Shown here: positions 8,244-29,481 of the stretch, piece after piece
Position numbering within the stretch: position 1 is the stretch's first letter
Layout: each line of letters starts with the position of its first letter
Virus record (IMG/VR): IMGVR_UViG_3300019135_000035
Span: 1-29,481 of that record
Length of the DNA stretch: 29,481 bases
Direction: 5' to 3' (one strand)
From: a virus
The notes under the pieces: generated by a model
What the model was told of the DNA's origin: nothing
Seen by the model: the letters and a program-made list of their open reading frames with translations, nothing else
Databases searched by the model: none
Made by a program: the position numbers and the translations under genes

Positions 8244-8246
8244 AAC

Positions 8247-8958: not shown

Positions 8959-9293
8959 CTTGCGGACACCTCCTTGCGGCGAAACGGCACAACATTGTCG
9001 CGCTCTCTGAACTCATTCCAAGTCATTCCGCGTGTCACAGAGACGCCGAACTCTTGCTCGGAAACGGCAAGCAATCTTGCCGTATCGGACAACGACATCA
9101 AATACGCCAATTCAGGCGCGTGAGAGAGCGTGCATTTTCGGCAAACTACTAATCCCGTTTCATCGCAAACGACTTCGACGCCGATGTTCGGATTAGTCGC
9201 CTCACCGCATAACGGGCAAAGGTCGGTAATTCGTGTGTTTAATTTAATCGCTAATTTTGGAAGCGATAAGATATTCGTGATATTCTTTTTCAT
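8955..9293 (-). CDS. C4 zinc-finger protein, cassette gene 2, copy B
   Basis: A 112-residue protein with the CPLC ... CRKC zinc finger and the conserved NIGVEVVCDETGLVVCRKCT and ELAYLMSLSDTARLLAVSEQ stretches. It differs from copy A mainly after residue 85. A ribosome site (AAAGGAG) precedes ATG 9293, downstream of the intra-operon terminator. Unknown function; C4 fingers of this type bind DNA, RNA or protein. Confidence 0.85.
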   Translation of the reverse strand: MKKNITNILSLPKLAIKLNTRITDLCPLCGEATNPNIGVEVVCDETGLVVCRKCTLSHAPELAYLMSLSDTARLLAVSEQEFGVSVTRGMTWNEFRERDNVVPFRRKEVSAR

Positions 9294-9328
9294 AACTAAC
9301 TCCTTTCGTTATTCATAATGGAAGGTAG

Positions 9329-9363
9329 AAAAGCAGAGGTGAATGCGAATCACCTCTGCTTTT
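9329..9363 (-). terminator. intra-operon terminator/attenuator, cassette B
   Basis: The same 14-bp arms as in cassette A (AAAAGCAGAGGTGA and its complement) with a different 7-nt loop, between genes 1 and 2 on the minus strand. Loop changes with conserved arms support selection on the hairpin. Confidence 0.85.
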
Positions 9364-9367
9364 TGTT

Positions 9368-9670
9368 TTAGCCAGCACTTACGGCTGGTTTTCGATTGAG
9401 AAGTCCGCGTTCGGCGAGACTCATATTTAGCGCAGCCGCAGCAGCCAAGTGTTTGCAGGCGAGATTGTTTAGTCCCGCTTTGCAGCTACAATGACCGTAG
9501 CGGCGTGAGTTTCTGATAAAGAAATTAACGGTGTAAGTGTTGCCCGAAATTTTACTTTCGACACGGTACATACGGGCTGCGGTGGTCATCCGAACGACTA
9601 AATTTTTAGCTTCGGATTTGGCTTTATTGATTGCGTTTTCCATTTGTCGGCGGGTTTTTAATTCAATCAT
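9368..9670 (-). CDS. SWIM zinc-finger protein, cassette gene 1, copy B
   Basis: A 100-residue protein almost identical to copies A and D, with the SWIM signature CSCKAGLNNLACKH at about residues 62-75 and basic N-terminal helix IELKTRRQMENAINKAKSEA. A ribosome site AAAGGA precedes ATG 9670. It is the first product of the cassette B operon. No partner or substrate can be inferred beyond a likely DNA- or protein-binding role of the SWIM finger. Confidence 0.85.
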   Translation of the reverse strand: MIELKTRRQMENAINKAKSEAKNLVVRMTTAARMYRVESKISGNTYTVNFFIRNSRRYGHCSCKAGLNNLACKHLAAAAALNMSLAERGLLNRKPAVSAG

Positions 9671-9696: not shown

Positions 9697-9802
9697 GTCG
9701 TTTCCGACTCTTTAGATATTATACGGCTCGTATAGTTATTTGTCAATACGATTCGTATAGTTTTTGCGTTTTTTTTATACGATTCGTATTATTAATATCT
9801 AT
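9697..9802 (-). promoter_or_regulatory. divergent control region of cassette B with three ATACG-N3-CGTAT operators
   Basis: On the minus strand TTGACA (9746-9741), 17 nt, TATAAT (9723-9718) is a perfect consensus promoter for the operon. Three palindromes ATACG-N3-CGTAT lie at 9721-9733 (over the -10), 9746-9758 (at the -35) and 9777-9789 (over the regulator's promoter). This three-operator layout resembles lambda-type switches. The mRNA would start with a GTCG-GAAA-CGAC hairpin (9708-9697), the counterpart of AGTCA-GAAA-TGACT in A, C and D with paired base changes. The plus-strand regulator promoter is about TTGCGT-17-TATTAT (9764-9792). Confidence 0.82.
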
Positions 9803-10000
9803 ATGAACGGAAGCGAGCTAAGAGAGAAACGAAAGCAGTTGAAACTAACTCAAGAGCAATTAGCCCAAGAGTTAAAAGTAACTGCAAACACTATCGCCAG
9901 GTGGGAAAGAAGCGAGATGGCTATTCCGCCTTTTCTTGAACTTGCAATCAAAACAATCGAACGCGAAAAAGGAGAGCAGACCGCCGAAAGCGAAGAATAA
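9803..10000 (+). CDS. HTH (Xre/Cro-type) repressor of cassette B
   Basis: A 65-residue HTH_3 protein: LREKRKQLKLTQEQLAQELK then VTANTIARWERSEM. The start is ATG 9803 (MNGSELREK); no ribosome site precedes it and the predicted promoter ends about 10 nt upstream, so the mRNA is leaderless or nearly so. It should bind the three ATACG-N3-CGTAT palindromes, shutting the nuclease operon. It reads into two cargo genes, the first starting 2 nt after its stop. It is distinct from the regulators of A, C and D. Confidence 0.87.
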   Translation: MNGSELREKRKQLKLTQEQLAQELKVTANTIARWERSEMAIPPFLELAIKTIEREKGEQTAESEE

Positions 10001-10002: not shown

Positions 10003-10476
10003 ATGAGCAGGATTGAACGGAAAGATAATCTTCAAGAACCGGAAGAATTTGAAGTTTTTACAGATGAAGAAAAACACGCCTTAGCAAAGTCTTTTGTCTT
10101 TATACCAAGCAAGGATGAGATTGAAAGATTTACGGAATGGGCGCGTTTCGCTCAATTTGAAAGCCTTGTCTTAAGCAATTTGATTGAAGGTCGGGCAAAG
10201 ATTACCGCCATTAACGAAAACGGCGCTCCGCAATTTGAACTCATTAAAAACAAAGAAAGTGAAGTAAATAATTTTATGGGGAAAATCGAACCGCGTGAAG
10301 GCGTTGAAGTTTACGTCAGCGTAAAATGCAATGTCATTATTAAACAGGAAACCAGCTTTGGTGAAAATATGATTATTATTCACCCGGACGATGTGCCGAA
10401 AGTTATCGAATTTCTACAGGAAGCTCTTCAGCAAGCTCTTAATTGTGAGCCGGAAAACGACGAAAACGAAGTATGA
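10003..10476 (+). CDS. unknown protein, cassette B cargo 1
   Basis: A 157-residue soluble acidic protein without recognised domain. It begins MSRIERKDNLQEPEEFEVFT and includes a mixed alpha/beta core (EGVEVYVSVKCNVIIKQETS, then IIIHPDDVPKVIEFLQEALQ). It starts 2 nt after the regulator stop and overlaps cargo 2 by 4 nt (ATGA, 10473-10476), so it is expressed with the repressor, when the nuclease operon is presumably silent. Such placement is typical of lysogenic conversion genes; what it does is not visible. Confidence 0.75.
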   Translation: MSRIERKDNLQEPEEFEVFTDEEKHALAKSFVFIPSKDEIERFTEWARFAQFESLVLSNLIEGRAKITAINENGAPQFELIKNKESEVNNFMGKIEPREGVEVYVSVKCNVIIKQETSFGENMIIIHPDDVPKVIEFLQEALQQALNCEPENDENEV

Positions 10477-11180
10477 AGATTAACATTGACGAATTAATCA
10501 ATAAACTAGAATCCGATGGTTTTATCCCTATTCGTGTTATTTATCAAAAATCCCCAAGAATTGACGTATTAACGCGCGGCGATTTGGACTATTTTCTGAA
10601 ATCCGTTAAATCTCTCGGAGAAAAGGCAGTTTTCATCTCCGAATATATTTTTGACGAATCGTATTTTATTTATGAGCCGGAAACAAAGGTTTTAGGTTCT
10701 TATAACAAAAGCGGCGAAACTGTGCTTGAAAATACAATTCATTTGCCGGATGTAAAGCCGGAATTAAATGACTTTAAGCAGTATATCGGTGAAGCTGCGG
10801 TTTTAATTTTATCGTCCGTTTACCGAGATAAAACCTTGACCTATCTTCATAACGCTGGTTGGTATGACGAATTTCAACTGTCGGAAAGCGAGGCGATTGA
10901 AGCGATTGACGCTAACGAGCAAAAATTAAGAGCCGAGCGCGAAACAAATCAGGCATTACAAGACGAAGAAAACAGAAAACAAGAAGCCGTTTTAATTGAG
11001 AAACTAAAGGCTTTGGTGGATGATGAAAAATTTACTCGACTTGAAACGCAAAGAGCAATGCAATCATACGCTTTGGAACTAATGCCGGAACTTGCGGACT
11101 TGTCGTCATCAGTTTTTAAAAATGAGATTCAGCTTTTAAGTGACAGGGTAAAAACGAGAAAACTTTTAAATAAAACTTAA
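10473..11180 (+). CDS. unknown protein with coiled-coil stretch, cassette B cargo 2
   Basis: A 235-residue protein with an N-terminal alpha/beta region (MKINIDELINKLESDGFIPI; VFISEYIFDESYFIYEPETK) and a charged helical stretch at about 148-185 (AIDANEQKLRAERETNQALQ, then DEENRKQEAVLIEKLKAL). No membrane segment, no recognised family. Overlap of 4 nt with cargo 1 suggests a pair. Downstream lies the cassette-end repeat. Confidence 0.72.
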   Translation: MKINIDELINKLESDGFIPIRVIYQKSPRIDVLTRGDLDYFLKSVKSLGEKAVFISEYIFDESYFIYEPETKVLGSYNKSGETVLENTIHLPDVKPELNDFKQYIGEAAVLILSSVYRDKTLTYLHNAGWYDEFQLSESEAIEAIDANEQKLRAERETNQALQDEENRKQEAVLIEKLKALVDDEKFTRLETQRAMQSYALELMPELADLSSSVFKNEIQLLSDRVKTRKLLNKT

Positions 11181-12158: not shown

Positions 12159-13283
12159 ATGCCGCTCATGTTGACTCCCGAAAAATTACGTCAAATCTGC
12201 CCGATGCCGGGCGCGAGAGCTTTAGAATTGCTGCCGCTGCTCGCAGCGGCAATGGTTGAGTTCAAAATCACATCCAGAACGCGCGCAGCAGCTTTCCTTG
12301 CGCAGTGCGGACACGAATCAATTGATTTTAAAGTCTGGACGGAAAATCTGAACTATTCCGCTTCCGGTCTTTTAAAAACTTTCGGCAAATATTTTAACGT
12401 CGCTACAGCTAACACATACGCCCGCAATCCGCGAATGATTGCCAATCGCGTGTATGCCAATCGAATGAGAAACGGCGCGGAGCAATCGGGCGACGGCTGG
12501 CGTTATCGCGGGCGCTGTCCGATTCAAGCCACCGGCAAAGAAATGTATGAGTGGCTTTCCGAAGCTCTCGGTTTGGATTTAGTCAATAACCCGGATTTGC
12601 TGCTCGAACCCAAAACCGGTTTGCGCGCAGCGTGCGCGATTTTCGCCGTCAACAAACGCTGCAACCAGCTTGCCGACCAATTAACCGGCACGGGCGACGC
12701 GGTTGATCTGGCGAGATTCGATAGAACGACGAAAGCCATCAACGGCGGATTGAACGGCGCGGCGGACAGGCGCGCTCGATACAAACGAGCTTTGGCGGTT
12801 TTGACGAAAAATTTCACGCTGAAGCCGTCATCGTCAGATGCAGCGAGTTCGCCGACGAAAGCGGTAAAACCGGATGTAAAATGTCCGAATCCGAACTGCA
12901 ATTATTCAGCCGCGCCGCCCGTATGTACGAAGTGTGGAACTTTAGTTGCGGACGGTGCGGCTAACTCCGCTACTAATGAATCCGGCTCCGCTACTAACAC
13001 CGTCCAACCGACTGAAGGTTCGGCATCTGCTTCGGTCAAAGACTTCACCAAAAAATATTTAGTCCACACTCCCACCGATTCGGTTAAAAACATCTTTTTC
13101 GTTATTTGCGCCCGAATCGCTTCAACCGCTACAGCGTTGTGGAATTTTGGCTTTACCGGGCGCGCGCTGCTGTTTCTCATCGCTTTCGCGGCTATTGTGC
13201 CAGTCGTGATTGCCGTCACTTATTACCGCCCTCGACTGATTGATTGGGGCAAGCAAATCTGGGACGGATCCTTCGGAGAATGA
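12159..13283 (+). CDS. GH19 endolysin with zinc ribbon and C-terminal membrane segment
   Basis: A 374-residue protein. Residues 1-210 are a glycoside hydrolase family 19 (chitinase-like) lysozyme: FLAQCGHES with catalytic Glu53, ENLNYSASGLLKTFGKYF, IANRVYANRMRNG, GDGWRYRGRCPIQATGK, and INGGLNGAADRRARYKRA, cutting peptidoglycan. The usual RGRG-IQ-TG loop is RGRCPIQATG. Around 241-260 a zinc ribbon (CPNPNCNY ... CTKCG) follows, then a Ser/Thr/Ala-rich linker and a transmembrane segment at about 335-356. ATG 12159 is preferred because GAGG lies just upstream; 12150 and 12168 are alternatives. The zinc ribbon plus membrane anchor are unusual for a phage GH19 endolysin. It overlaps the next frame by ATGA. 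Confidence 0.88.
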   Translation: MPLMLTPEKLRQICPMPGARALELLPLLAAAMVEFKITSRTRAAAFLAQCGHESIDFKVWTENLNYSASGLLKTFGKYFNVATANTYARNPRMIANRVYANRMRNGAEQSGDGWRYRGRCPIQATGKEMYEWLSEALGLDLVNNPDLLLEPKTGLRAACAIFAVNKRCNQLADQLTGTGDAVDLARFDRTTKAINGGLNGAADRRARYKRALAVLTKNFTLKPSSSDAASSPTKAVKPDVKCPNPNCNYSAAPPVCTKCGTLVADGAANSATNESGSATNTVQPTEGSASASVKDFTKKYLVHTPTDSVKNIFFVICARIASTATALWNFGFTGRALLFLIAFAAIVPVVIAVTYYRPRLIDWGKQIWDGSFGE

Positions 13284-13315
13284 AAAAACAAATTCTTTTA
13301 GTTGGAGCAGGAACA

Positions 13316-13528
13316 ATGAAACATCACTTAGTCAGTTTGTTGGGTTTAGCCGTGGGTCTGGGCTTTGCGCCGATGCCCCGCGCCCGCGTTGAATTTCCTG
13401 AAATTCAAAAAGGCAAATCAACAACCTTGGACCGCCTTAATCCATTTGTAGTTTCCGCGATTGAAAAAGCGGAAGCGAGACGCAAGAAGCGCAATCAAAA
13501 ACGGGTTCAAAATCGCGCAATCGCATAA
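13316..13528 (+). CDS. small exported or membrane-associated protein in lysis block
   Basis: A 70-residue protein with an N-terminal hydrophobic stretch (MKHHLVSLLGLAVGLGFAPM), then VEFPEIQKGKSTTLDRLNPF and a very basic tail (EARRKKRNQKRVQNRAIA). GGAG eight nt before ATG 13316 supports this start; ATG 13280 overlapping the endolysin stop is possible. Position between endolysin and spanin-like genes suggests a lysis role or a minor structural role, but no family is recognised. Its stop overlaps the next ATG. Confidence 0.6.
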   Translation: MKHHLVSLLGLAVGLGFAPMPRARVEFPEIQKGKSTTLDRLNPFVVSAIEKAEARRKKRNQKRVQNRAIA

Positions 13529-16592: not shown

Positions 16593-16795
16593 ATATATTC
16601 AAATTCAATTCGGCTAATAATTGCGTCAACCGGGCATTTATTATGCTCGCTGAAAAATCGAATAAATTCAGACGGCGACATTTCGGGAAAGCCTTCCGCG
16701 ACACAATCGGTTTGAGTCATTTGATTGAGCGGTTCGCGCCGAAAGCCGGTAATACGGATTCTCGCTAAAACGACCGGCTTTTCTCTTTTGCACAC
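16589..16795 (-). pseudogene. C-terminal half of an ASCH-domain-like phage protein
   Basis: The 68 codons read RIRITGFRREPLNQMTQTDC, then VAEGFPEMSPSEFIRFFSEH and a final RIEFEYI. Phage ASCH-type proteins have the same ending: an (RREPL..IT..DA..EGF) block followed by a final (RIEFEY) strand. The N-terminal half with the conserved nucleic-acid-binding GxKxxT part is absent: similarity stops at the leader repeat beginning 16801. It is therefore probably a remnant left by recombination at that repeat. Confidence 0.6.
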
Positions 16796-16800
16796 TCAAA

Positions 16801-16870
16801 AACAACCGCTCAATAAAATTTATCTAAACTTAAAGAGGCTCATAAAGAGTCTCTTTTGCTTTTGCGCGGA
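16801..16870 (+). repeat. leader/end repeat copy 1 with terminator hairpin
   Basis: Starts AACAACCGCTCAATAAAATT; its first 30 bases are identical at 20892 and 27061. The hairpin AAAGAGGCT...AGTCTCTTT (16832-16856) with T-rich tail follows. After TTTTGCG the sequence continues into a portal-upstream region shared with copy 2. Confidence 0.85.
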
Positions 16871-16941
16871 AAAGGGAAAGCCGCAAAATGCTTGAGAACT
16901 CACCGCTTTTTTACAACCGCCGCAACTTCTTACACCTTTTT

Positions 16942-17028: not shown

Positions 17029-17110
17029 CACTCTCCAGCCTAACGCTGAATCTTGTTGCTTGGAGATTCTAAAGACACGCTTTGCCTATCGGCATACGTT
17101 ACGTCTTTAC
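17005..17110 (-). ncRNA. candidate omegaRNA 3' end and guide of TnpB-C
   Basis: On the minus strand the tnpB-C end contains ATCTCCAAGC...GCTGGAGA, which folds into a hairpin, followed by GTGTC(AA), as in copy 0. The guide would start near 17024: TAATCGTAAAACTGTTGAAG, antisense to the portal remnant. The intact portal (21118-21130) keeps the first 11 nt of this sequence and then differs. Confidence 0.6.
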
Positions 17111-18203
17111 GGGCAAGCCCTGCCCGATTAAGAATTATTTTTGCGCTGACAATATCACGATGCAGAGATAAACCGCATTTTTCGCATTTATGCCGACGAA
17201 CCGATAAGTTTTTCTTAACGCCCGCGCCGCAAATACAGGTTTGACTTGTGCCTTTGGCGTCAACTTTCCAAACTCTTTTACCAGCGTTTTCAGCTTTGTA
17301 TTCGAGTAGATTCAGAAAGTTTCCCCAACTCGCATCGGATATGCTTTTTGCAAGATGATGATTTTTCACCATATTGCGGATTTGCAGATTTTCAACTGCG
17401 ATTTCATCAAATCTTTTAATTAAATTCGTGCTTTGTTTGTGCAGGAAATCCAATCTTTGACGTTTGATTTTCAGGTGTTGTTTTCGTAGTAAACGAACTG
17501 CATCCTGACGGTTATTACTGCCTTTTTTCTTGCGCGACAGCTTTCTCTGCAAGCGTTTCAATTTTCTTTCGGCAACGCGCAAAAAGCGCGGATTTTCTAT
17601 TTTCTCGCCGTTCGATAGCGTTGCGAAATTTTCCAGCCCGACATCAACGCCGATTGTCGCGCCTGTTTTCTCAAGAAGTTGTTTTTCGATTTCAGCCGTA
17701 AAAATTACGAACCAGCCGTCAACCTCTCGTTTAATCTGACAGGTTTTGATTTTGCCTTCGATTTCACGGCTCAAGCGGATTTTAAAGCTGCCGATTTTGG
17801 AAAGAATCAACCTATCGCCTATCAATTTAAAACCTGCTTGCGGATAGCAAAACGAGTTATAGCGGCTTGCGCTTTTGAAACGGGGAAAACCCGCTTTTTC
17901 ACCTTTTTTGACTCTGCCGAAAAACGCTTTGAAAGTTTTGTCGAGGCGATTTAAAACATCCTGCAAAACCTGAGCATAGACCGCATTTAAATCTTCTCTG
18001 ATTTTTTTTACTTCCGGTAATTGGCTTTGTTGGTTTTTATGTGAAATCGAGATTAGATTAAATTTCCAAGCGTCGCGCCTTTCCTGTAACGCGGCGTTAT
18101 ACAACTCGCGGCAAAGCGTAAGTGTTTCTTCAAATTTCGCCGCAACCGCTTTTGACGGTCTGCAAATTTTGAATTTATAGGTTTTGATAGTCTTTTCGGA
18201 CAT
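17040..18203 (-). CDS. tnpB: TnpB RNA-guided nuclease, cassette C
   Basis: A 387-residue TnpB with RuvC D187 (IGVDVG), E271 (AVENLQI) and D350 (SLHRDIVSAK) and the zinc finger C323-x-C325 ... C340-x2-C343. ATG 18203 lies 10 nt after the gene 4 stop (AAAAAGG before ATG), a longer gap with its own ribosome site, unlike the 3-nt gap in B, D and E. It groups with copies 0 and D by finger type. The 3' flank is antisense portal DNA, so the predicted target is a portal gene. Confidence 0.94.
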   Translation of the reverse strand: MSEKTIKTYKFKICRPSKAVAAKFEETLTLCRELYNAALQERRDAWKFNLISISHKNQQSQLPEVKKIREDLNAVYAQVLQDVLNRLDKTFKAFFGRVKKGEKAGFPRFKSASRYNSFCYPQAGFKLIGDRLILSKIGSFKIRLSREIEGKIKTCQIKREVDGWFVIFTAEIEKQLLEKTGATIGVDVGLENFATLSNGEKIENPRFLRVAERKLKRLQRKLSRKKKGSNNRQDAVRLLRKQHLKIKRQRLDFLHKQSTNLIKRFDEIAVENLQIRNMVKNHHLAKSISDASWGNFLNLLEYKAENAGKRVWKVDAKGTSQTCICGAGVKKNLSVRRHKCEKCGLSLHRDIVSAKIILNRAGLARKDVTYADRQSVSLESPSNKIQR

Positions 18204-18213
18204 CCTTTTTAAA

Positions 18214-18450
18214 TCAATACCGATTACATTCTTTACAGGTCGAACGCAGACCGCCCGTTTTGCGAGGGTAAAAGTTCGAGCGTAAGACGAAATGTTTGCC
18301 CTTGTTGCACCATTTGACCGACGCGCCTTGAATTATCAATTTGCGGTCAACTTCGCGCTCTACGACATCAATCAACTGCCGGATAAAGATTTGTTCTTCC
18401 GTCGGCAGTTGATTGAATTTGTCCGCTAATTGCTCAAATCTCTCCTTCAT
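18214..18450 (-). CDS. zinc-ribbon protein, cassette gene 4, copy C
   Basis: A 78-residue protein: MKERFEQLADKFNQLPTEEQ, IFIRQLIDVVEREVDRKLII and the zinc part KWCNKGKHFVLRSNFYPRKT, GGLRSTCKECNRY. Nearly identical to B, D and E. It starts within the 3' end of gene 3 (17-nt overlap). As in the other copies, the nuclease slot follows. It probably binds nucleic acid or assists the nuclease, by analogy with HNH enzymes in which this module precedes the catalytic domain. Confidence 0.8.
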   Translation of the reverse strand: MKERFEQLADKFNQLPTEEQIFIRQLIDVVEREVDRKLIIQGASVKWCNKGKHFVLRSNFYPRKTGGLRSTCKECNRY

Positions 18451-18961
18451 CTTCTCCGACAACCGAGACGCCGTTAGCGCGCGTCACCTCAATGCGCGCC
18501 CCGAATCCGTTTTCTTCGTAAGCCGACAGATACATCTCGATAACTTCCGGCGTTTCATCGTCGGCGTATTGAGACATAAAAGACAAAGCATCGTGAATCG
18601 TGTCTTTCAAAGGCTGCGGTGTGGCGGGATTATTCAAGACCTGTGAAATCAATTCAGCCAACTCTTTTTTACCCGTTTTTTCCTGCGCCTCCGGTTTGTC
18701 CGGTTTTTCCTGCCCGTCTTTTCTTTCCTGCGAGTAAGCGAAGTTGTCGAGCAGCGAGACATAATGCACTGCTCGTCCTACCAAATCTTCTCCTAACTCG
18801 CCCGTATATTGAATCGTTTCGATAAGACTCATCTCGCTTAATCTGCTCAAGGAATTTTCATCGTCAACGAGAATCAAGAGCCGAAACAGGGCTTGCATTT
18901 TGAATAAAACCTGTAACGCGGATTGCGCGTTTCCGTGCGGAGTATTGGGAAAATCTTTCAT
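18434..18961 (-). CDS. helical protein, cassette gene 3, copy C
   Basis: A 175-residue version of gene 3. N-terminus NTPHGNAQSALQVLFKMQAL and C-terminus RIEVTRANGVSVVGEDEGEI are as in the other copies, but the middle has a charged insertion (SQERKDGQEKPDKPEAQEKT) and diverged helices (LKDTIHDALSFMSQYADDET, PEVIEMYLSAYEENG). The partial copy E shares the C version of the last 40 residues, so C and E are sister lineages. ATGA overlap with gene 2. Confidence 0.8.
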   Translation of the reverse strand: MKDFPNTPHGNAQSALQVLFKMQALFRLLILVDDENSLSRLSEMSLIETIQYTGELGEDLVGRAVHYVSLLDNFAYSQERKDGQEKPDKPEAQEKTGKKELAELISQVLNNPATPQPLKDTIHDALSFMSQYADDETPEVIEMYLSAYEENGFGARIEVTRANGVSVVGEDEGEI

Positions 18962-19293
18962 CTTGCCACCTCCAATTTTCTAAACGGAATCACATTGTCG
19001 CGGTCGGAAAAATCAGCCCAACTGAAATTGTTTTCAACGCGCGCGCCGAACTCTCGTTCGGAAACGGCAAGTAATCTGGCTGTGTCGGAAAGAGACATCA
19101 GGTAAGCCAATTCAGGCGCGTGTTGGAGCGTGCACGCGCGGCAAACCACTAATCCCGTTTCATCGCAAACGACCTCGACGCCGATGTTCGGGTTGGTTGC
19201 TTCATTGCATAACGGACACGAATCCGTGATTCGTGTATTTAATTTAATCGCTAATTTTGGAAGCGATAAGATATTTGTTGTATTCTTAGACAT
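18958..19293 (-). CDS. C4 zinc-finger protein, cassette gene 2, copy C
   Basis: An 111-residue protein with CPLC ... CRAC finger, NIGVEVVCDETGLVVCRACT and ELAYLMSLSDTARLLAVSER. ATG 19293 (MSKNTTN) fits copies A and B and has AAAGGA upstream (on the minus strand); ATG 19299 is a minor alternative. The finger region is nearly identical to A although gene 1 is different, which points to recombination between cassettes. Confidence 0.85.
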   Translation of the reverse strand: MSKNTTNILSLPKLAIKLNTRITDSCPLCNEATNPNIGVEVVCDETGLVVCRACTLQHAPELAYLMSLSDTARLLAVSEREFGARVENNFSWADFSDRDNVIPFRKLEVAR

Positions 19294-19325
19294 AAGCAAA
19301 GTCCTTTCTTAATTGATTGGATTGG

Positions 19326-19361
19326 AGGCTTAGACAGGTTTGGTAGAACTTGCCTAAGCCT
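19326..19361 (-). terminator. intra-operon terminator/attenuator, cassette C
   Basis: On the minus strand AGGCTTAGGCAAG pairs with CTGTCTAAGCCT across a loop of about 10 nt with one or two mismatches. The sequence differs entirely from the A/B/D hairpin but sits at the same place between genes 1 and 2, so the hairpin itself is what is kept. Confidence 0.75.
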
Positions 19362-19368
19362 TTTTGTT

Positions 19369-19683
19369 TTAGTTGGTTCTTTCAACGTAGATTTGAATCA
19401 AACGGCTAGCCGCGCGGTGATAACACGGATAACCTTTTCGATGCGCTTCACACTGACAAGTGCCGTTGGCGGTGTAGATTTGCCCGCTTCGCTCGGAAAG
19501 CATTAAAAGCGAGTGCGAATCGTGGTTATAAGTCATAAACGGGTTGTTTTCGATTTCAACCGTCGCTTTGGCGATTGCGTTAATCCAGCGTTTGCCGTTC
19601 TCTTGTCGCGGGTTGATTTTTGCAATTGATTCGGCGGCGATTTCACCTAATAGTTCTTTGTTGATTTCGGTTGCTACGTTCAT
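19369..19683 (-). CDS. divergent SWIM zinc-finger protein, cassette gene 1, copy C
   Basis: A 104-residue protein occupying the gene 1 place but with little similarity to the A/B/D version. It keeps the SWIM signature CQCEAHRKGYPCYH at about residues 76-89, with INAIAKATVEIENNPFMTYN and LLMLSERSGQIYTANGTCQC before it. A second SWIM protein at the same locus suggests the SWIM function is needed while sequence is free to vary or be swapped. AGGAG precedes ATG 19683. Confidence 0.82.
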   Translation of the reverse strand: MNVATEINKELLGEIAAESIAKINPRQENGKRWINAIAKATVEIENNPFMTYNHDSHSLLMLSERSGQIYTANGTCQCEAHRKGYPCYHRAASRLIQIYVERTN

Positions 19684-19709: not shown

Positions 19710-19811
19710 AGTCATTTCTGACTTACAAATAAAGATTAACAGATTCGTTAATCTTTATCAATAGAAAATTAACATTTGTGTTAATCTTTTTAGTGATTTA
19801 TCATTTTGCCG
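19710..19811 (-). promoter_or_regulatory. divergent control region of cassette C with two GTTAAT-type operators
   Basis: AAAGATTAAC-N6-GTTAATCTTT (19731-19756, 10-bp perfect arms) and ATTAAC-N6-GTTAAT (19768-19785) are the operators. The operon promoter on the minus strand is TTGATA (19761-19756), 17 nt, TAATCT (19738-19733), inside the first palindrome. The mRNA would begin just before AGTCAGAAATGACT (19723-19710), the same GAAA-loop hairpin as in A and D. The regulator promoter on plus is a weak TTGTGT-17-TATCAT (19776-19804), overlapping the second operator. Confidence 0.75.
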
Positions 19812-20012
19812 ATGAATAAATTGACTGCAAAACAAGTTGCTGGAAAATTAGGCGTAAATGACAGTCGCGTAAGGCAGTTGATTAAATCAGGCAAGCTGCC
19901 AGCCGAAAAATACGGCAATCTTTGGTTAATTAATGAAGAAGATTTAGAACTTGTACAGAATCGTAAACCGACAGGCAGACCGCCGAAAGCGAAGATTGAA
20001 GGTGAAAAATAA
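19812..20012 (+). CDS. excisionase/MerR-like HTH regulator of cassette C
   Basis: A 66-residue protein: LTAKQVAGKLGVNDSRVRQL then IKSGKLPAEKYGNLWLINEE and DLELVQNRKPTGRPPKAK. This is the HTH_17/excisionase-type winged helix, not the Xre fold used by A, B and D. The C-terminal TGRPPKAK resembles an AT-hook-like basic tail. ATG 19812 follows the predicted -10 box by 7 nt, so the mRNA is leaderless. It should bind the GTTAAT palindromes. Cargo starts 5 nt downstream. Confidence 0.82.
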   Translation: MNKLTAKQVAGKLGVNDSRVRQLIKSGKLPAEKYGNLWLINEEDLELVQNRKPTGRPPKAKIEGEK

Positions 20013-20017: not shown

Positions 20018-20863
20018 ATGGGTGTAGTACCTCCAACCGTAAATACAACTCCAAAACAATTCTGCTTTGTCTTGATGCCGTTCGACGAGGCTTTTGACGA
20101 TGTTTACAACTTAGGTATTAAAGAAGCCTGTAAAAGCGCCGGAGCTTATTGCGAGCGAATAGATGAACAGATATTTAGTGAAAGCATTCTGGAACGAGTT
20201 TACAATCAAATCTCGAAAGCCGACATTATTATTGCCGATATGACGGGGCGTAATGTTAATGTCTTTTATGAAGTCGGCTATGCTCACGCTTTAGGTAAGT
20301 CAGTCATTTTGCTTACTCGAAATGCGGATGATATTCCTTTTGATTTAAAGCACTATCCTCACATTGTTTACGGAGGCAAAATTACTAGGCTGGTCGAAGC
20401 ATTGGAACGCAGGGTGAGATGGTGCGTAGAAAATCCCCGGCAAATGCTAAGCAAGGTTGATTTGAATCTGGAGTTTTTTCTGGAGGGGAAGAAGTTGGAA
20501 GAGAATGTCGAGGTGCAAAAATCTTTCAAGGATTTCAACGCCGTCACAGACATAATTTTTCGTTTGAATGTACACAACACCGATAGAAGTATATGCGATG
20601 CGTCTTTCGTGGAACTTGGCTTGATATTACCGAAAGAATTTCGCAGATTGAATACAAGCACCTCGGCAGTTACTTTATCGGATAATGAATATATGCATCT
20701 TCTCAAAGGCATCGGCAAGCTTCTTCCGGGCGGCTGGACGGGGCTTGATGTTAAAACGTATGTCAACAATGCGGATGAATTAAAAAACAGAAAGTTGGAT
20801 TGCTGTTTGCGCATATTTTCAGAATTGGGTACGAGAGATATTCCGTTCAAACTTTTGACTTGA
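20018..20863 (+). CDS. TIR-like / nucleoside deoxyribosyltransferase-like protein, cassette C cargo
   Basis: A 281-residue protein. Residues about 15-130 match the TIR-like, nucleoside 2-deoxyribosyltransferase-like fold: FCFVLMPFDEAFDDVYNLGI, a CERIDEQIFSESILERVYNQ block, ADIIIADMTGRNVNVFYEVG (with the catalytic-type Glu) and YAHALGKSVILLTRN, then DIPFDLKHYPHIVY. Proteins of this group occur in phage-defence systems as NAD or nucleotide-processing effectors. The C-terminal half (about 150-281) is an unrecognised domain that could sense or regulate. Expressed with the repressor, it would suit a lysogen-encoded defence against other phages. Confidence 0.75.
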   Translation: MGVVPPTVNTTPKQFCFVLMPFDEAFDDVYNLGIKEACKSAGAYCERIDEQIFSESILERVYNQISKADIIIADMTGRNVNVFYEVGYAHALGKSVILLTRNADDIPFDLKHYPHIVYGGKITRLVEALERRVRWCVENPRQMLSKVDLNLEFFLEGKKLEENVEVQKSFKDFNAVTDIIFRLNVHNTDRSICDASFVELGLILPKEFRRLNTSTSAVTLSDNEYMHLLKGIGKLLPGGWTGLDVKTYVNNADELKNRKLDCCLRIFSELGTRDIPFKLLT

Positions 20864-22378: not shown

Positions 22379-22500
22379 GGCATCCGTCCACTGCGGCGGC
22401 AATCTACAAATTAAATTTGTAGATTCTCAAACAACGTACAAACTATTGTTTCACGTTAGCGTTTGAACGCTCTACCTGAGCGCGTTTTAAAATCACCTGA
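22379..22500 (-). ncRNA. candidate omegaRNA 3' end and guide of TnpB-D
   Basis: Minus-strand sequence after the tnpB-D stop forms a perfect hairpin, AATCTACAAATT and its complement around one base (22425-22401). Then comes GCCGCCGCAGTGGACGGATG (22400-22381). CGCAGTGGACG also occurs in the intact portal (22163-22173), where it encodes part of Q-W-T; the guide continues GATGCC instead of CCCGCC. The guide therefore fits a different portal allele. Confidence 0.65.
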
Positions 22501-23555
22501 GCCGACACTAAATCTCTGTCAGATTCAAGCCCGCACGAATCACATTTATGATTCCGAACGGCTAAAGTTTTCGGAACATTTGCCCCGCAAATACAAGTTT
22601 GGCTCGTGCCGTATGGCGAAACTTCAACCAATGTTCTACCAGCATTTTCAGCTTTGTAGCGTAATTTGAAGAAGAAACTAGACCAACTTGCATCTAATAC
22701 CTGTCTGGCTAATGCTCCTTTGCACAAACCTTTGATATTTAATTTTTCAATCGCTATCAAATCATTTTCAGAAATTATTTTTGTAGATATTTTATGCTGA
22801 AAATCGTTTCGCTGATTAAAGATTGTTTGATAAACCTTTTGCAGCAACAATAGTGCTTTTCTTCGGCGGTTGCTGCCTTTTTTTCGCCGTGCTACGTGGC
22901 GGTGCGCTTTTCTCAGTTTCTTTTGCGATTTTTCGGCTTCTCTTTGGTTGTCAATAATCGTGCCGGATGAAAGAGCGGCAAAACTTTTTAAACCGACATC
23001 TATACCGATTTCGTTTCCTGTTTTAGGTAACAATTTCGGCTCAAATTCAACAACTATAGAAACATACCATTTTCCACATTGACGTTTAACGGTTGCGGTT
23101 TTCATCTTCCCGTCAATATTCTGATGTTGTTTTATTTTTATTAAACCTAGACGCGAAAGATTAAATTTGCCGTTTTTAAAATTGTATCTTGTATTTGGCA
23201 CTGAGAATGAATTAAAACGGCGGTAACTTTTAAATCGGGGAAAACCCGATTTTTCGCCCCTTTTAACTCTGCGGTAAAAGCCTTTAAATGATTCATCCAA
23301 TCTTCGCAGGCAATTTTGAAAAACAGAAGAATTTACGTCTTTTAATTCAGGTCTTATTTGTTTAATTTCCGGCAACTGGTTTTGCTGGTCAAAATAATTA
23401 ACGGAGATTTGGTTTAATCGCCAAGCATCGCGCCGTTCCTGCAAAGCAGCGTTATATAACTCACAACAAAAACTTAGCCAAGTTTCGAGTTTTTCGGTTT
23501 GCGCTTTCGTTGGGTATATCCTGAATTTATAAGTTTTGATAACCGTTTTCGACAT
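22443..23555 (-). CDS. tnpB: TnpB RNA-guided nuclease, cassette D
   Basis: A 370-residue TnpB with D186 (IGIDVG), E270 (AIEKLNI), D348 (SDRDLVSAQ) and the zinc finger C321-x-C323 ... C338-x2-C341. ATG 23555 follows the gene 4 stop by 3 nt (TGA-ATT-ATG), the same junction as the unrelated nuclease of copy E. It belongs to the CICG sub-clade. Its C-terminal tail is short, so the presumed omegaRNA scaffold hairpin is just outside the gene. Confidence 0.94.
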   Translation of the reverse strand: MSKTVIKTYKFRIYPTKAQTEKLETWLSFCCELYNAALQERRDAWRLNQISVNYFDQQNQLPEIKQIRPELKDVNSSVFQNCLRRLDESFKGFYRRVKRGEKSGFPRFKSYRRFNSFSVPNTRYNFKNGKFNLSRLGLIKIKQHQNIDGKMKTATVKRQCGKWYVSIVVEFEPKLLPKTGNEIGIDVGLKSFAALSSGTIIDNQREAEKSQKKLRKAHRHVARRKKGSNRRRKALLLLQKVYQTIFNQRNDFQHKISTKIISENDLIAIEKLNIKGLCKGALARQVLDASWSSFFFKLRYKAENAGRTLVEVSPYGTSQTCICGANVPKTLAVRNHKCDSCGLESDRDLVSAQVILKRAQVERSNANVKQ

Positions 23556-23558
23556 AAT

Positions 23559-23795
23559 TCAATACCGATTACATTCTTTACAGGTCGAGCGCAGACCGCC
23601 CGTTTTGCGAGGATAGAAGTTAGAGCGCAAGACGAAATGCTTTCCCTTGTTGCACCATTTGACCGACGCGCCCCGAATTATCAATTTCCGGTCAATCTCT
23701 CTTTCGACGACATCAATCAACTGCCGAATGAAAGTTTGTTCTTCCGTCGGCAGTTGGTTGATTTTCTCAGCAATTAATTCAAATCTCTCCTTCAT
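23559..23795 (-). CDS. zinc-ribbon protein, cassette gene 4, copy D
   Basis: A 78-residue protein starting MKERFELIAEKINQLPTEEQ and ending SNFYPRKTGGLRSTCKECNR-Y. ATG 23795 is used for consistency with the other copies; an upstream in-frame start exists only within gene 3. Zinc site as in copy B. The stop TGA is 3 nt before tnpB. Confidence 0.8.
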   Translation of the reverse strand: MKERFELIAEKINQLPTEEQTFIRQLIDVVEREIDRKLIIRGASVKWCNKGKHFVLRSNFYPRKTGGLRSTCKECNRY

Positions 23796-24270
23796 CTTCT
23801 CCGACAACCGAAACGCCATTAGCGCGGGTTACTTCAATATCCGCGCCGTTGCCGTTTCTGCGATAAGCGTCAAGAAACACTTCAATCGTCTGCTCATCGT
23901 CCGTGTCGGCAAACGAAGCCATAAAACGCAAGGCGTCCGAAATCATATCGGTCAAAGGCTGCGGCACGTCCTTGTGCTTTAAAACGGCGGAAAGCAGCAC
24001 GGGCAAAGTGAATCTTTCCTCAAGCCCGTCAATTTCATTGTTCGTCTGCAACTCGACTAATGAGACGAAATGCAGCGCGTTTCCAACTAAATCCACGCCC
24101 GTTTCGCCCGTTGCCTGAATGGTTTCGATAAAATACATCTCGCCTAATTTGGAGAGAGAATTATCATCGTCAACTAAAATCAGCATCCGCATTAAGGCTT
24201 GTATTTTGTATAAAGCCTGCAATGCGGATTGGGAGTTTCCGTGCGGCGTGTTGGGAAAATCGGTTTTCAT
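23779..24270 (-). CDS. helical protein, cassette gene 3, copy D
   Basis: A 163-residue protein: MKTDFPNTPHGNSQSALQAL, a central FVSLVELQTNNEIDGLEERF, LPVLLSAVLKHKDVPQPLTD, and C-terminus DIEVTRANGVSVVGEDEGEI. ATG 24270 overlaps the gene 2 stop (ATGA), which is the arrangement in all copies. Function unknown. Confidence 0.8.
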   Translation of the reverse strand: MKTDFPNTPHGNSQSALQALYKIQALMRMLILVDDDNSLSKLGEMYFIETIQATGETGVDLVGNALHFVSLVELQTNNEIDGLEERFTLPVLLSAVLKHKDVPQPLTDMISDALRFMASFADTDDEQTIEVFLDAYRRNGNGADIEVTRANGVSVVGEDEGEI

Positions 24271-24608
24271 CTCGCCACCTCCATATTTTGGAGTTCGTCG
24301 AAACCGTTCCAATTCAAGCCGCTAAACGCTTCGGGAAAGTTTTCTTTCTCGAACGTCACTCCGAATCTGCGCTCTGAAATCGCTAATAATCTCGACGCTT
24401 CCGCGAGGTTGAGCAGGTAAGCCAAATCAAGACCGTAGCTAGTCGCGCAATCTTTACAGACCGGATGCTTTGTGGTTTCTTCGACAATCTCAAGACCGAT
24501 GTTTGCATTGGTCGCTTCGGTGCAAACAGGACATAATTCGCCGATTATGCGGTTCATCCTGATTGCCAATTCTGGAATTAGAGTTAGATTTGTTGTATTG
24601 TTTTTCAT
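24267..24608 (-). CDS. C4 zinc-finger protein, cassette gene 2, copy D (most divergent)
   Basis: A 113-residue protein with CPVC ... CKDC finger. The framework is kept (TEATNANIGLEIVEETTKHP; DLAYLLNLAEASRLLAISER) but this copy differs from A, B and C at many positions. Its gene 1 and gene 4 neighbours are nearly identical to those of A and B, so the cassette is a mosaic. The C-terminal region (NWNGFDELQNMEVAR) ends in the MEVAR also seen in copy A. Confidence 0.83.
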   Translation of the reverse strand: MKNNTTNLTLIPELAIRMNRIIGELCPVCTEATNANIGLEIVEETTKHPVCKDCATSYGLDLAYLLNLAEASRLLAISERRFGVTFEKENFPEAFSGLNWNGFDELQNMEVAR

Positions 24609-24641
24609 TGAATCCTTTCATTTGTTAAAAGTGGAAGAAAG

Positions 24642-24676
24642 AAAAGCAGAGGTGATTGGTACTCACCTCTGCTTTT
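24642..24676 (-). terminator. intra-operon terminator/attenuator, cassette D
   Basis: The same 14-bp arms as A and B (AAAAGCAGAGGTGA) with loop TTGGTAC, between genes 1 and 2, ending in T's on the minus strand. Confidence 0.85.
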
Positions 24677-24682
24677 TGATTT

Positions 24683-24985
24683 TTAGCCAGCGCTCACGGC
24701 TGGTTTTCGATTGAGCAGACCGCGTTCCGCCAAAGACATATTGAGCGCAGCCGCAGCAACCAAATGTTTGCAGGCTTGATTGTTAAGACCTGCTTTGCAC
24801 GAGCAGTGACCGTATCTGCGGTTGTTGCGGATAAAGAAATTAACTGTATAAGTGTTGCCGCTAATTTTGCTTTCGACGCGATACATACGAGAGGCGTTCG
24901 TCATTCTGACGACAAGATTACGAGCTTCCGATTTAGCTTTATTAATGGCGTTTTCGAGTTGTGCGCGGGTTTTGAGTTCAATCAT
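24683..24985 (-). CDS. SWIM zinc-finger protein, cassette gene 1, copy D
   Basis: A 100-residue protein nearly identical to A and B; SWIM signature CSCKAGLNNQACKH. AGGAG precedes ATG 24985. It is the promoter-proximal gene of the operon and the only one before the conserved terminator hairpin. Confidence 0.85.
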   Translation of the reverse strand: MIELKTRAQLENAINKAKSEARNLVVRMTNASRMYRVESKISGNTYTVNFFIRNNRRYGHCSCKAGLNNQACKHLVAAAALNMSLAERGLLNRKPAVSAG

Positions 24986-25120: not shown

Positions 25121-25348
25121 ATGATTTCGGGCGTGGTTAGAATTAAATTAAGCGAGTTGTTAGAAAAGCGGGGAAAAAGTCTATATGCCGTATCGAAAGA
25201 AACGGGCGTAGCTTATAACGCTTTGAGCAAGATAAAAAACAACAAAGTTAGCGGAATTACTTTTGATGTAATGGAAAAACTTTGTTTGAATTTGGATTGC
25301 TCGCCAAACGATTTGTTTCAAATCACGCCGGACAAGATAGCAAAATGA
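25121..25348 (+). CDS. HTH (Xre/Cro-type) repressor of cassette D
   Basis: A 75-residue protein: IKLSELLEKRGKSLYAVSKE, TGVAYNALSKIKNNKVSGIT, FDVMEKLCLNLDCSPNDLFQ. This is the short Cro/CI-type HTH (HTH_26-like) used by many small phage repressors. ATG 25121 is 6 nt after the predicted -10 box and lacks a ribosome site, so the mRNA is leaderless. It presumably binds the TATCTTGACATAT arms. Confidence 0.85.
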   Translation: MISGVVRIKLSELLEKRGKSLYAVSKETGVAYNALSKIKNNKVSGITFDVMEKLCLNLDCSPNDLFQITPDKIAK

Positions 25349-27001: not shown

Positions 27002-27060
27002 AGAACACTTTACCTGTTAGGAAGTTTTATTTCATATGTATTTTGTATCTATTCAAAACT

Positions 27061-27125
27061 AACAACCGCTCAATAAAATTTATCTAAACTCTAAGAGGCT
27101 CATTTGAGTCTCTTTTTCTTTTGCC
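27061..27125 (+). repeat. leader/end repeat copy 3 fused to portal 3' remnant
   Basis: The first 30 nt are identical to copies 1 and 2; hairpin TAAGAGGCTC...GAGTCTCTTT (27092-27116) and CTTTTTCTTTTGC follow. Copies 1 and 2 continue GCGGAAAAGGG, but here CCCACCGGCGAG of a portal gene follows at once, marking a recombination or insertion junction. Confidence 0.85.
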
Positions 27126-27321
27126 CACCGGCGAGAGCGAAACGCTCGACAACATGAATAAAAAACAGCGTCTCGGCTGGTCGAACGAACAGTTGCAGCG
27201 CGATTTCGGATTGTCTGATGAGCACATCAAAAAGATGACGGAAGAAAACCAGCGGCGCGCGGTCGCAGAATCCGAAGCAAAAGCTAAGATGTTCGATTCG
27301 GGAATGAGCTTGATGAGTTAG
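27124..27321 (+). pseudogene. 3' remnant of a second portal gene
   Basis: The frame reads PTGESETLDNMNKKQRLGWS, NEQLQRDFGLSDEHIKKMTE and ends SGMSLMS. It matches the intact portal's PIGELEALDINLKKLSLGWS, VEQIQRDYGLSDTQISLMAK at about half of the residues. It lacks everything upstream and a proper start. It begins where the predicted TnpB-D target ends. With the 5' remnant at 16942 it probably represents the original portal of the genome now flanking the insert. Confidence 0.88.
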
Positions 27322-27323: not shown

Positions 27324-27500
27324 ATGAAGTGTATTTCTGTTCTTGTCAAAAGGTTATTTTGTTCTCACGTTTTTAGGTACCGCCGAAATATTTACGGCGA
27401 CGAAATAATTTATTCCGGTTTTAAACGAACTCTTTACAAATGCATTTCTTGCAAAAGCTATAAAGGCATTGAAGATTTCACAACACAAGAGATTTTATGA
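27324..27500 (+). CDS. small zinc-binding phage protein
   Basis: A 58-residue protein: CSHVFRYRRNIYGDEIIYSG and FKRTLYKCISCKSYKG. The pattern C-x-H ... R-N-I-Y-G-D-E-I ... Y-x-C-x-x-C is that of a widespread small phage protein found near portal genes and probably binds zinc. ATG 27324 lies 2 nt after the portal remnant stop, and its TGA overlaps the ATG of the MuF gene (27497), so this part keeps the order portal-zinc protein-MuF of the original phage. Confidence 0.75.
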   Translation: MKCISVLVKRLFCSHVFRYRRNIYGDEIIYSGFKRTLYKCISCKSYKGIEDFTTQEIL

Positions 27501-28432
27501 CGCCGGAACAATTAGCAGCCGAGCAGCGCGCCTTTCTGATCAGAACCGAAAAGCAGTCGGCAATTTTGTTGGCGGCTGAATTCGACGCGCTAAAACGAGA
27601 GATTTCCGACTATTTGACAGCAACTTTACCCGGCGAAATTACGCTCGCCAAAATCGAGGAAAGAAACTTTCTCGCGCGGTTTTTGGACAAACTGACCGAA
27701 GAAATTGACATTTTGTCATCGCCGCTTGCCGTAGCGGTCGCCAGAGCGCAAAAACGAGTCATTAATTTTGCCGCCGATTCTCTGAAAAGATTCTTGCCGG
27801 AAATTAGAGCTTCAATTTTCGAGACTGACAAAGAAGCGATTCGACAATTAATCAACCGGACGCAGCGGGGCGAATCTTTGCTAAAAGCATTTTCGCGTTT
27901 GAGCGAGCCAATCGCGCTCAGAACCAAACAGGAATTGATTGAAGGTTTTCGAGAGGGCGAAACGGCGGCAAACATCGCAGCTCGGATTAACGATGTTTCA
28001 GATGTCGGATTGACTCGCGCGATGACGCTCGCTCGAACCGAAACAAATGAAGCATATCGAGCTGCAAGCCGTGACTTTTTTCGGGACGCGGATATTAAAA
28101 AATACGTCTGGTTATCTGTACTCGATGTGAGAACCTGTAGTCGCTGTTGGTTTTTACACGGAAAAGTCTTTAAAACCAAACATAAAGTCACAAGTCATCC
28201 CAATTGTCGTTGTACCCTTATACCAAAGCAGTCGAATATTGAAATTGTTTCAGGTGCGGAAAGGTTTGCCATTCTGAACGAAGGTTATCAAAGACAAATC
28301 ATCGGAAGTAGAAGGCTGGAAATGTATAAGCAAGGCGTTAAATTTGATTCGTTTTTCGACTCGCGCCAAACTGAACATTACGGAGAGCAGATTTTTATAA
28401 AACCGCTTGCCGATTTTTCAGATTACAGCTAA
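27497..28432 (+). CDS. MuF-like minor head protein
   Basis: A 311-residue protein. The N-terminal 150 residues are helical; the C-terminal third is the phage Mu F-like head morphogenesis domain: LARTETNEAYRAASRDFFRD, YVWLSVLDVRTCSRCWFLHG, KVF...SHPNCRCTLIP. Such proteins bind the portal and are packaged or needed in head assembly. It follows the portal-zinc protein block. Its 3' end overlaps the end of the antisense endonuclease of cassette E by 15 nt; the C-terminus (PLADFSDYS) may have been changed by that joining. Confidence 0.88.
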   Translation: MTPEQLAAEQRAFLIRTEKQSAILLAAEFDALKREISDYLTATLPGEITLAKIEERNFLARFLDKLTEEIDILSSPLAVAVARAQKRVINFAADSLKRFLPEIRASIFETDKEAIRQLINRTQRGESLLKAFSRLSEPIALRTKQELIEGFREGETAANIAARINDVSDVGLTRAMTLARTETNEAYRAASRDFFRDADIKKYVWLSVLDVRTCSRCWFLHGKVFKTKHKVTSHPNCRCTLIPKQSNIEIVSGAERFAILNEGYQRQIIGSRRLEMYKQGVKFDSFFDSRQTEHYGEQIFIKPLADFSDYS

Positions 28433-29137
28433 CTTAATCAGCAATTCTTTTCGCATATCCGCATTAGCTCTTTTGTAAAACGGCGTGGCAATAAGGCGCA
28501 AAACTCGAAAACCTTTGTTACTCAAAAAAACGTCTTTTTTAGCGTCGCGCGTTTTGGATTTTTCGTGCCAATAAGGTTCGTCAACTTCTAAGATTAAGTT
28601 CAAATCCGGCAGGTAAAAATCCATTGAACCCTGCCAACCTTTTATTCTGTATTCTTGAATAAATCGAATATCAAGCTGTCCTAACAATAACCGAACGTTT
28701 TTTTCCGGCTCTGTCTCGCCCTGATATTTTCTGTAACAGCTAACAGAGCAAAATTTCGCTGTTTTTAGGTGAACAGGCGAAATACGAAAAGACTTTCCGC
28801 AATTAAGACAGGAAACCGAAACAACAGGGCGGCGACAAGTTTCCGAACAATGTTTATGTCCTACGCGCCTTTTTGGAAATCTCTTTCCACAGCGTTGACA
28901 ATTAATGTAACAAGTTTTCGCAAAGGAACATTCTTGAGAGCAATTGGTATAACGATTCTGATTTGAACGCGGCACTGCGAAATCTTTTCCACAATTAGCG
29001 CACGTTTTAACAACGTTCGTAATTTTCTGACGACAAGCTAAAGAGCAATAATCGCCGTACTTTGAAAGACTCCGCTTCTTAAATTGCGAAGGAAAAAGTT
29101 TAAACTGTTTTCCGCAAACGGAGCAGATTTTTTCCAT
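28418..29137 (-). CDS. Vsr-like endonuclease with four zinc knuckles in the nuclease slot of cassette E
   Basis: A 239-residue protein. Residues 1-135 hold four zinc fingers of the type C-x2-C ... C-x3-C (C5/C8/C31/C35, C46/C49/C66/C70, C80/C83/C97/C101, C110/C113/C130/C134). Residues 145-239 are a Vsr/DUF559-type PD-(D/E)XK nuclease: SMDFYLPDLNLILEVDEPYW (D173, E184, D186) then H191 and KGFRVLRL. Related EDxHD enzymes such as I-Bth0305I are phage homing endonucleases. It starts 3 nt after the gene 4 stop (TGA-ATT-ATG), the junction also used by tnpB-D, so it has replaced tnpB in an otherwise normal cassette. Confidence 0.87.
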   Translation of the reverse strand: MEKICSVCGKQFKLFPSQFKKRSLSKYGDYCSLACRQKITNVVKTCANCGKDFAVPRSNQNRYTNCSQECSFAKTCYINCQRCGKRFPKRRVGHKHCSETCRRPVVSVSCLNCGKSFRISPVHLKTAKFCSVSCYRKYQGETEPEKNVRLLLGQLDIRFIQEYRIKGWQGSMDFYLPDLNLILEVDEPYWHEKSKTRDAKKDVFLSNKGFRVLRLIATPFYKRANADMRKELLIKLAVI

Positions 29138-29140
29138 AAT

Positions 29141-29377
29141 TCAATACCGATTGCATTCTTTGCAGGTTGAGCGCAGACCGCCCGTTTTGCGCGGGTAAAA
29201 GTTTGTACGCAGAACAAAGTGTTTGCCCTTATTGCACCATTTGACCAACGCGCCTTTAATTATCAATTTCCGGTCAATCTCTCTTTCGACGACATCAATC
29301 AACTGCCGGATGAATGTTTGTTCTTCCGTCGGCAGTTGATTGATTTTTAGTGCGATTTGCTCAAATCTCTCCTTCAT
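29141..29377 (-). CDS. zinc-ribbon protein, cassette gene 4, copy E
   Basis: A 78-residue protein, MKERFEQIALKINQLPTEEQ ... NFYPRKTGGLRSTCKECNRY, nearly identical to copies B and D although the nuclease downstream is of a different superfamily. This shows that gene 4 is tied to the nuclease position rather than to TnpB. It overlaps the end of gene 3. Confidence 0.8.
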   Translation of the reverse strand: MKERFEQIALKINQLPTEEQTFIRQLIDVVEREIDRKLIIKGALVKWCNKGKHFVLRTNFYPRKTGGLRSTCKECNRY

Positions 29378-29481
29378 CTTCTCCGACAACGGAAACGCCG
29401 TTTGCGCGGGTTACTTCAATGCGCGCCCCGAATCCGTTTTCTTCGTAAGCCGACAAATACATCTCGATAACTTCCGGCGTT
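29361..29481 (-). CDS. helical protein, cassette gene 3, copy E (cut by window edge)
   Basis: The last 39 codons are visible: TPEVIEMYLSAYEENGFGAR then IEVTRANGVSVVGEDEGEI. They match copy C exactly over the visible part, whereas copies A, B and D differ (FLDAYRRNGNGA). Genes 2 and 1 of this cassette must lie to the right of the window. Confidence 0.85.
   Translation of the reverse strand, partial: TPEVIEMYLSAYEENGFGARIEVTRANGVSVVGEDEGEI

Follow-up and report, generated by a model that had tools for sequence, protein, structure and literature searches.

The window analysed here is the whole linear IMG/VR record IMGVR_UViG_3300019135_000035, 29,481 bases in length. A map of its open reading frames (ORFs) revealed five cassettes of near-parallel layout (B, C, D', D and E) and a lone TnpB gene, copy A, which lies inside a Dam methylase gene where the record begins (12-1187, + strand). 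From ORFs and alignments, cassette B spans 3746-6248 (+) with TnpB at 5151-6248, and cassette C spans 7146-9670 (-) with TnpB at 7146-8243. With Pfam matches as additional evidence, D' is the name given to the copy at 17040-19683 (-), with TnpB at 17040-18203 and gene 1 at 19369-19683, and D lies at 22443-24985 (-). Cassette D is made up of a SWIM gene (gene 1, 24683-24985), gene 2 (24267-24608), gene 3 (23779-24312), gene 4 (23559-23819) and a TnpB gene for 370 amino acids (22443-23555), all on the - strand. The record ends within copy E, where the alignment shows the 3' end of gene 3 (29361-29481, -) and gene 4 (29141-29389, -), which encodes a helical segment and a small zinc module. Slot 5 of copy E holds a nuclease of 239 amino acids (28418-29137, -) that was assigned from its ORF, Pfam, PHROG, a match to the solved structure 3r3p and alignment. 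Next to it a MuF-like phage gene occupies 27497-28432 (+), as judged from its ORF, Pfam and comparison with relatives. The SWIM protein encoded by gene 1 of D' (-) belongs to a family other than that in B, C and D, so gene 1 is exchangeable too. The zinc module of gene 4 weakly resembles that of endonuclease-VII/HNH nucleases (phrog_1035 for the D copy, 9e-4) and may, speculatively, be the leftover of an earlier nuclease.

The cassettes are accompanied by divergent helix-turn-helix (HTH) regulators and by cargo. Island B carries an HTH_3 regulator (3406-3642, -) and two cargo genes of 231 and 414 amino acids (1400-3343, -) to which Pfam and PADLOC assigned no function. The same holds for the cargo of island C (157 and 235 amino acids, 10003-11180, +), whose regulator is also of the HTH_3 family (9764-10000, +). 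Island D' combines an HTH_17 regulator (19806-20012, +) with a TIR/nucleoside-deoxyribosyltransferase-like gene (20018-20863, +; PADLOC TIR effector 1.8e-9, PF05014 2.4e-7), and the regulator of island D is an HTH_26 protein (25121-25348, +), these regulators all being identified with Pfam. Regulator family and cargo thus differ from island to island, and the part of the islands that holds them is exchanged as well as the nuclease. Sliding DNA identities showed that the core of copy E is itself a mosaic, with the end of gene 3 resembling D' (59/60), the start of gene 4 resembling C (57/60) and the middle resembling D (58/60). Recombination between cassettes is therefore frequent and gives an ordinary route for exchanging the last module.

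The preliminary description had placed a swap of nucleases right after gene 4, where D continues as TnpB and E as a zinc-knuckle nuclease, and direct DNA alignment confirmed it. Copies E and D are identical at 60 of 66 positions through the end of CGGTATTGAATTATG and match at chance level beyond, so that DNA that is about 90% identical up to this point is unrelated past it. Sliding windows gave about 50/60 identical positions ahead of the junction and 18-27/60 past it and, together with an alignment of all five copies, agree with the break found in the pairwise comparison; the gene 4 proteins of E and D share 93% identity. The aligned junction CGGTATTGAATTATG comprises the gene 4 stop, ATT and the start of the nuclease in copy E (29135-29149, -), and the gene 4 stop, ATT and the start of TnpB in copy D (23553-23567, -). 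The start codon of the E nuclease therefore occupies the exact position of the TnpB start, with equal spacing. In its literal form the ...TTGAATTATG junction belongs to the gene-4 cassettes of the window, and in other phages the change comes after gene 3. We considered whether copy E could be an assembly chimera. This is unlikely, since assembly joins typically need a longer identical stretch than the last 18 bases shared by D and E at the junction, and since a like swap recurs in independent genomes. Gene 4 of E ends just as it does where TnpB follows, and the simplest history for this phage would therefore be TnpB first and EDxHD second, with the TnpB module replaced exactly behind gene 4.

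The E nuclease consists of an array of CxxC zinc knuckles (residues 1-138, 29137-28724) and an EDxHD-type catalytic domain (residues 143-239, 28711-28418). In PHROG the N-terminal knuckles matched phage HNH-endonuclease families (phrog_1271, 1.8e-17; phrog_559, 5.8e-16) and the C-terminal part matched a homing endonuclease family (phrog_9084, 6.9e-8), while Pfam assigned DUF559 to the C-terminal domain over its cut-off (5e-6). Among solved structures the top sequence match of this domain was I-Bth0305I (PDB 3r3p; phmmer 6.1e-8, the next match being at 0.11). The same structure was best in a Foldseek search (E 7.5e-6, target TM 0.73) with a predicted model whose pLDDT is mostly >80 in the catalytic domain. 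Residues E145, D173, H191 and D198 are invariant in an alignment of four homologues. The nuclease had earlier been called Vsr-like; its EDxHD character stood, by sequence and by fold, but membership of Vsr proper did not, the Pfam Vsr profile scoring 17.6 bits against a cut-off of 27. Judged from its sequence and predicted model, the protein is of the EDxHD homing-endonuclease type and a predicted cutter. I-Bth0305I is the type member of these enzymes (PMC3943268). Both proteins are phage-borne and have a similar catalytic sequence and fold, the E/D/H/D residues and an extended DNA-binding arm. They differ in that the arm of the E nuclease is built of several zinc knuckles, and in that its gene is the last of a multi-gene island whereas I-Bth0305I resides in a group I intron. 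Phylum-wide matches to an HMM of the E nuclease were set aside, as they were chromosomal C-terminal nuclease domains only, none of them close to a SWIM gene.

TnpB, the ancestor of Cas12, fills the same slot in the other cassettes. The copy in D matched OrfB_IS605 (5e-26) and the TNB domain (5e-18) in Pfam, and the remaining copies align at 46-57% identity. Since the three RuvC residues D186, E270 and D348 are invariant in all five TnpB copies of the window, this nuclease looks catalytically intact as well. A search of the window with Rfam matched no known RNA family, and the right flank of TnpB is its presumed (putative) guide; at island B this putative guide position consists of Dam coding sequence. 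TnpB acts as a homing-like drive for IS elements (PMC11870625). The slot-5 TnpB of B, C, D', D and island 2 of a related prophage (G001, below) shares with IS200/IS605 elements the retained RuvC residues and the presumed guide on the right flank, but here TnpA was not seen among the ORFs examined, TnpB is one gene of an operon of 4-5 genes and the whole is an island of several kilobases with cargo and a regulator. It could still be argued that the TnpB copies are ordinary IS200/IS605-type insertions behind gene 4 and that E escaped them and gained its nuclease independently, in which case there would be no functional slot. TnpB is indeed a common IS gene in phages (our search matched 578 phage records), and the borders of island B are IS605-like with a shared ...TTAT. 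However, TnpB starts 3-11 bases past the gene 4 stop in C, D' and D and ahead of that stop in B, so that the left end of an IS would not fit in between. This relation between gene and TnpB is kept in four diverged copies of the window and in G001, and the Dam insertion is marked by the borders of the island, not by those of TnpB. Furthermore, no match to the Y1 transposase TnpA was found among the window proteins scanned with Pfam, a subset of the ORFs. We therefore regard insertion of ordinary IS elements as very improbable.

The core of the cassettes was also found in two other phages. One is a prophage on the Pyrinomonadaceae MAG contig JAJQRF010000002.1 (G001), which is syntenic with the window phage (portal 58%, MuF 47%, small terminase 65%) and carries two islands, L111 (island 1) and L149 (island 2). 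Their DNA is nearly identical over a stretch that begins with the SWIM gene and reaches into gene 3, and it is unrelated to the left and right of this stretch. Slot 5 of L149 is occupied by TnpB and that of L111 by an HNH nuclease (PF14279, 2.8e-12) followed by a zinc-knuckle endonuclease-VII protein (PF02945, 3e-21), both above the Pfam cut-offs (HNH_5, 46.8 bits vs 27.5; Endonuclease_7, 75.6 bits vs 23.6). The latter protein (12787-13506) has a C-terminal EndoVII domain with a DHxH...R...N pattern, and in BLASTP its zinc-knuckle arm proved a relative of the E nuclease arm (3e-10). As the arms are related and the catalytic domains different, exchange has also taken place within the nucleases, where one kind of DNA-binding arm is followed by different catalytic domains. 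C-terminal EndoVII domains are typical of the F-CphI homing family and not of resolvases (PMC6083498). With its C-terminal EndoVII domain and DHxH...R...N pattern the L111 protein resembles these DHHRN free-standing homing endonucleases, from which it differs in the arm it has in common with the E nuclease and in being part of a cargo island, whereas they work together with an intron. The other phage is the contig IMGVR_UViG_3300034002_000004 (L153), which encodes, in this order, an HTH protein, a SWIM protein, a gene 3 relative (detected by HMM, 3e-6) and a zinc-knuckle EDxHD nuclease of 307 amino acids. A second zinc-knuckle EDxHD nuclease lies near the capsid genes of the same contig (6735-7643, -), with no cassette core.

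In scans that covered IMG/VR and about 500 Acidobacteriota genomes, all eight core-bearing cassettes, a small sample from three viral genomes, ended in a nuclease: five in TnpB (B, C, D', D and L149), two in EDxHD (E and L153) and one in HNH plus EndoVII (L111). Further nuclease types at the slot had been named as support in the preliminary description, and the HNH and EndoVII proteins behind the same core in G001 and the second EDxHD protein in L153, where the change follows gene 3, are such cases; a non-nuclease gene in slot 5, which would have spoken against the idea, was absent from the eight. The earlier proposal that the cassette needs a DNA-cutting activity and not TnpB in particular thus gains support, the use of that activity for homing being inferred. 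HMM searches of the G001 prophage and L153 did not find genes 2 and 4. Scans of viral contigs with gene 4, gene 3, the portal and the D'-type SWIM protein gave no matches and those with SWIM gave L153 only. A scan of genome contigs with gene 3 gave no matches, and with TnpB it led to L003, a part of the G001 prophage. Several candidates were rejected. The best viral relative of TnpB (L037) has no cassette; gene 4 HMM matches in the same order (L074-L076) are chance similarities to the C-terminal tails of HTH repressors or to a zinc module inside an HNH protein; and a gene 3 HMM match (G090), also due to chance, lies within a tryptophan-synthesis-like cluster.

The islands occupy distinct sites in the phage genome. 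In the relative prophage G070 the Dam gene and the peptidase-terS, terL-portal and portal-MuF neighbourhoods are all uninterrupted, so the insertions are optional. The Dam gene of the window is in pieces, being cut by the TnpB copy A and by island B. As located by tblastn with the Dam proteins of G001 and G070, the fragment to the left of island B (1239-1322, +) ends in GCGGTTAT (1315-1322). The C-terminal fragment on its right (6269-6408, +; tblastn) begins with the same 8-bp repeat GCGGTTAT (6269-6276), and in its intact, joined form the dam site would read GGTTAT followed by CCGTCGAAAATCTACGAAGA. Island D ends at the stop of the portal gene. At its far end lies an orphan second, diverged portal 3' end (27124-27309, +; tblastn, 55% over 62 amino acids with the portal of a relative), as if the island had come with a complete portal 3' end and the old one had been left behind. 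A terminator-like stretch (AGAGGCTCATTTGAGTCTCT and its neighbours, about 27060-27120) is found at the same far end and recurs beside D' (about 16790-16900); the two islands may thus have an end in common.

Island E ends at the 3' end of MuF, where the final SDYS codons and the stop of MuF lie opposite the 3' end of the nuclease gene on the other strand. MuF of G001 ends at a Phe codon, directly past which the window phage has the antisense stop of the E nuclease. Both in E and in L153 the nuclease frame extends a few codons into the adjoining phage gene on the opposite strand, MuF in one case and a gp10-like structural gene in the other. In G001 a DNA methyltransferase gene (L149, 3717-5384, +) lies on the opposite strand directly behind MuF, at the site that island E occupies in the window phage. 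The overlap of the E nuclease with MuF would also be expected if the nuclease had belonged to the MuF locus all along, as a free-standing homing endonuclease alongside which genes 1-4 had landed by chance recombination, and phages commonly have free-standing homing genes between their conserved genes (PMC2988022, PMC6083498). Yet the MuF genes of both relative prophages lack an E-type nuclease, and the core with a related nuclease in L153 adjoins the gp10-like gene and not MuF, so the nuclease is not always linked to MuF. The precise placement of the E start codon at the TnpB position, with the same spacing, and the third nuclease type behind the core in G001 also speak against a native MuF nuclease, which we hold to be unlikely.

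Taken together, the swap, its recurrence, the conserved catalytic residues, the insertions seen against an island-free prophage and the modular recombination point to a probable reading, in which these are regulated phage islands that carry variable, partly defence-like cargo and spread by homing with an exchangeable nuclease module. The cassettes would be the mobile ends of optional islands, each laid out as variable cargo with an HTH regulator, a divergent promoter region, a constant core and a nuclease as the last gene, which would abut the 3' end of a phage gene or lie inside one. The constant core would comprise the SWIM gene and gene 3, joined in the window phage by genes 2 and 4. We infer that a relative, co-infecting or resident, has its island-free allele of that phage gene cut by the nuclease and that repair off the island-bearing copy then transfers the island, which amounts to homing. 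In B, C, D' and D the exchangeable module would be TnpB together with its right end, in E the EDxHD nuclease, and in the relative the HNH and EndoVII-type proteins. Because they are constant across islands, the SWIM gene and gene 3 are candidate helpers or regulators of the transfer. Both EDxHD and EndoVII (DHHRN) proteins are homing endonuclease families whose free-standing members home without introns (PMC6083498, PMC3943268).

Some of the cargo could suggest another purpose. L111 carries an AbiTii protein (3.9e-37), and this and the TIR effector-like protein of D' would fit nucleases that are weapons or defence effectors against competing phages or host DNA, within islands that are defence or competition cassettes and not homing elements. 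A phage intron endonuclease can moreover impair a co-infecting phage (PMC11620839). However, the nucleases sit at the island end against a target gene, in the fashion of homing genes, EDxHD and DHHRN are homing families, and island B lies inside the very gene that its putative TnpB guide would match. The two roles are also compatible. We consider a weapon role in place of homing improbable; spread by homing is the reading we prefer, and a benefit in phage competition besides homing is possible.

Introns, inteins and simple IS elements are known to exchange their homing nucleases. Like IStrons, group I introns and inteins, the islands join one mobile scaffold with unrelated nucleases, but their scaffold encodes proteins, namely the SWIM and gene 3 core, along with cargo that varies, and no self-splicing part is known. 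As with the free-standing seg and mob homing genes of T4-like phages, homing would be intronless and take place between conserved phage genes; those are single genes, whereas here a whole regulated cargo island is joined to the nuclease. In the literature searched, which covered few subscription papers, we found no description of such islands. The parts are of known kinds, and what is new is their combination, a single cargo-carrying core with one slot that takes either TnpB or protein homing nucleases unrelated to it. In these multi-gene cargo islands of Acidobacteriota phages, TnpB and protein homing endonucleases take each other's place. That like gene sets have different terminal cutters suggests that cleavage of island-free relatives is how the islands spread, and that the kind of cutter does not matter so long as it is suitable. 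Natural matched pairs, such as D and E in one genome or the two islands of one prophage, make RNA-guided and protein cutters testable as equivalent drives, and by way of the islands defence-like genes may pass from phage to phage.

Chromosomes of the same order commonly carry SWIM genes without gene 3. In 8 of 35 such loci a tyrosine integrase comes next (L113, L116, L117, L118, L119, L120, L122 and L130; Pfam identified the integrase in six), and most of these eight loci have a divergent HTH gene upstream. Most of the other loci have no recognisable mobility gene next to SWIM, and with so few that do, SWIM alone does not define an element. More tentatively, and with less confidence than in the phage islands themselves, we speculate that there could be a single island family with a mobility slot, in which the SWIM core is paired with a tyrosine integrase in chromosomes and with at least three kinds of homing nuclease, RNA-guided or protein, in phages. 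The core would then supply transfer helpers that work with any cutter, and the cargo, often anti-phage, would be spread by homing. About 36 genomes of the order also encode a portal-like protein at a similar distance (E about 1e-40 to 1e-94; L156-L183 and others), mostly in single copy, which possibly belongs to a domesticated prophage or a gene transfer agent.
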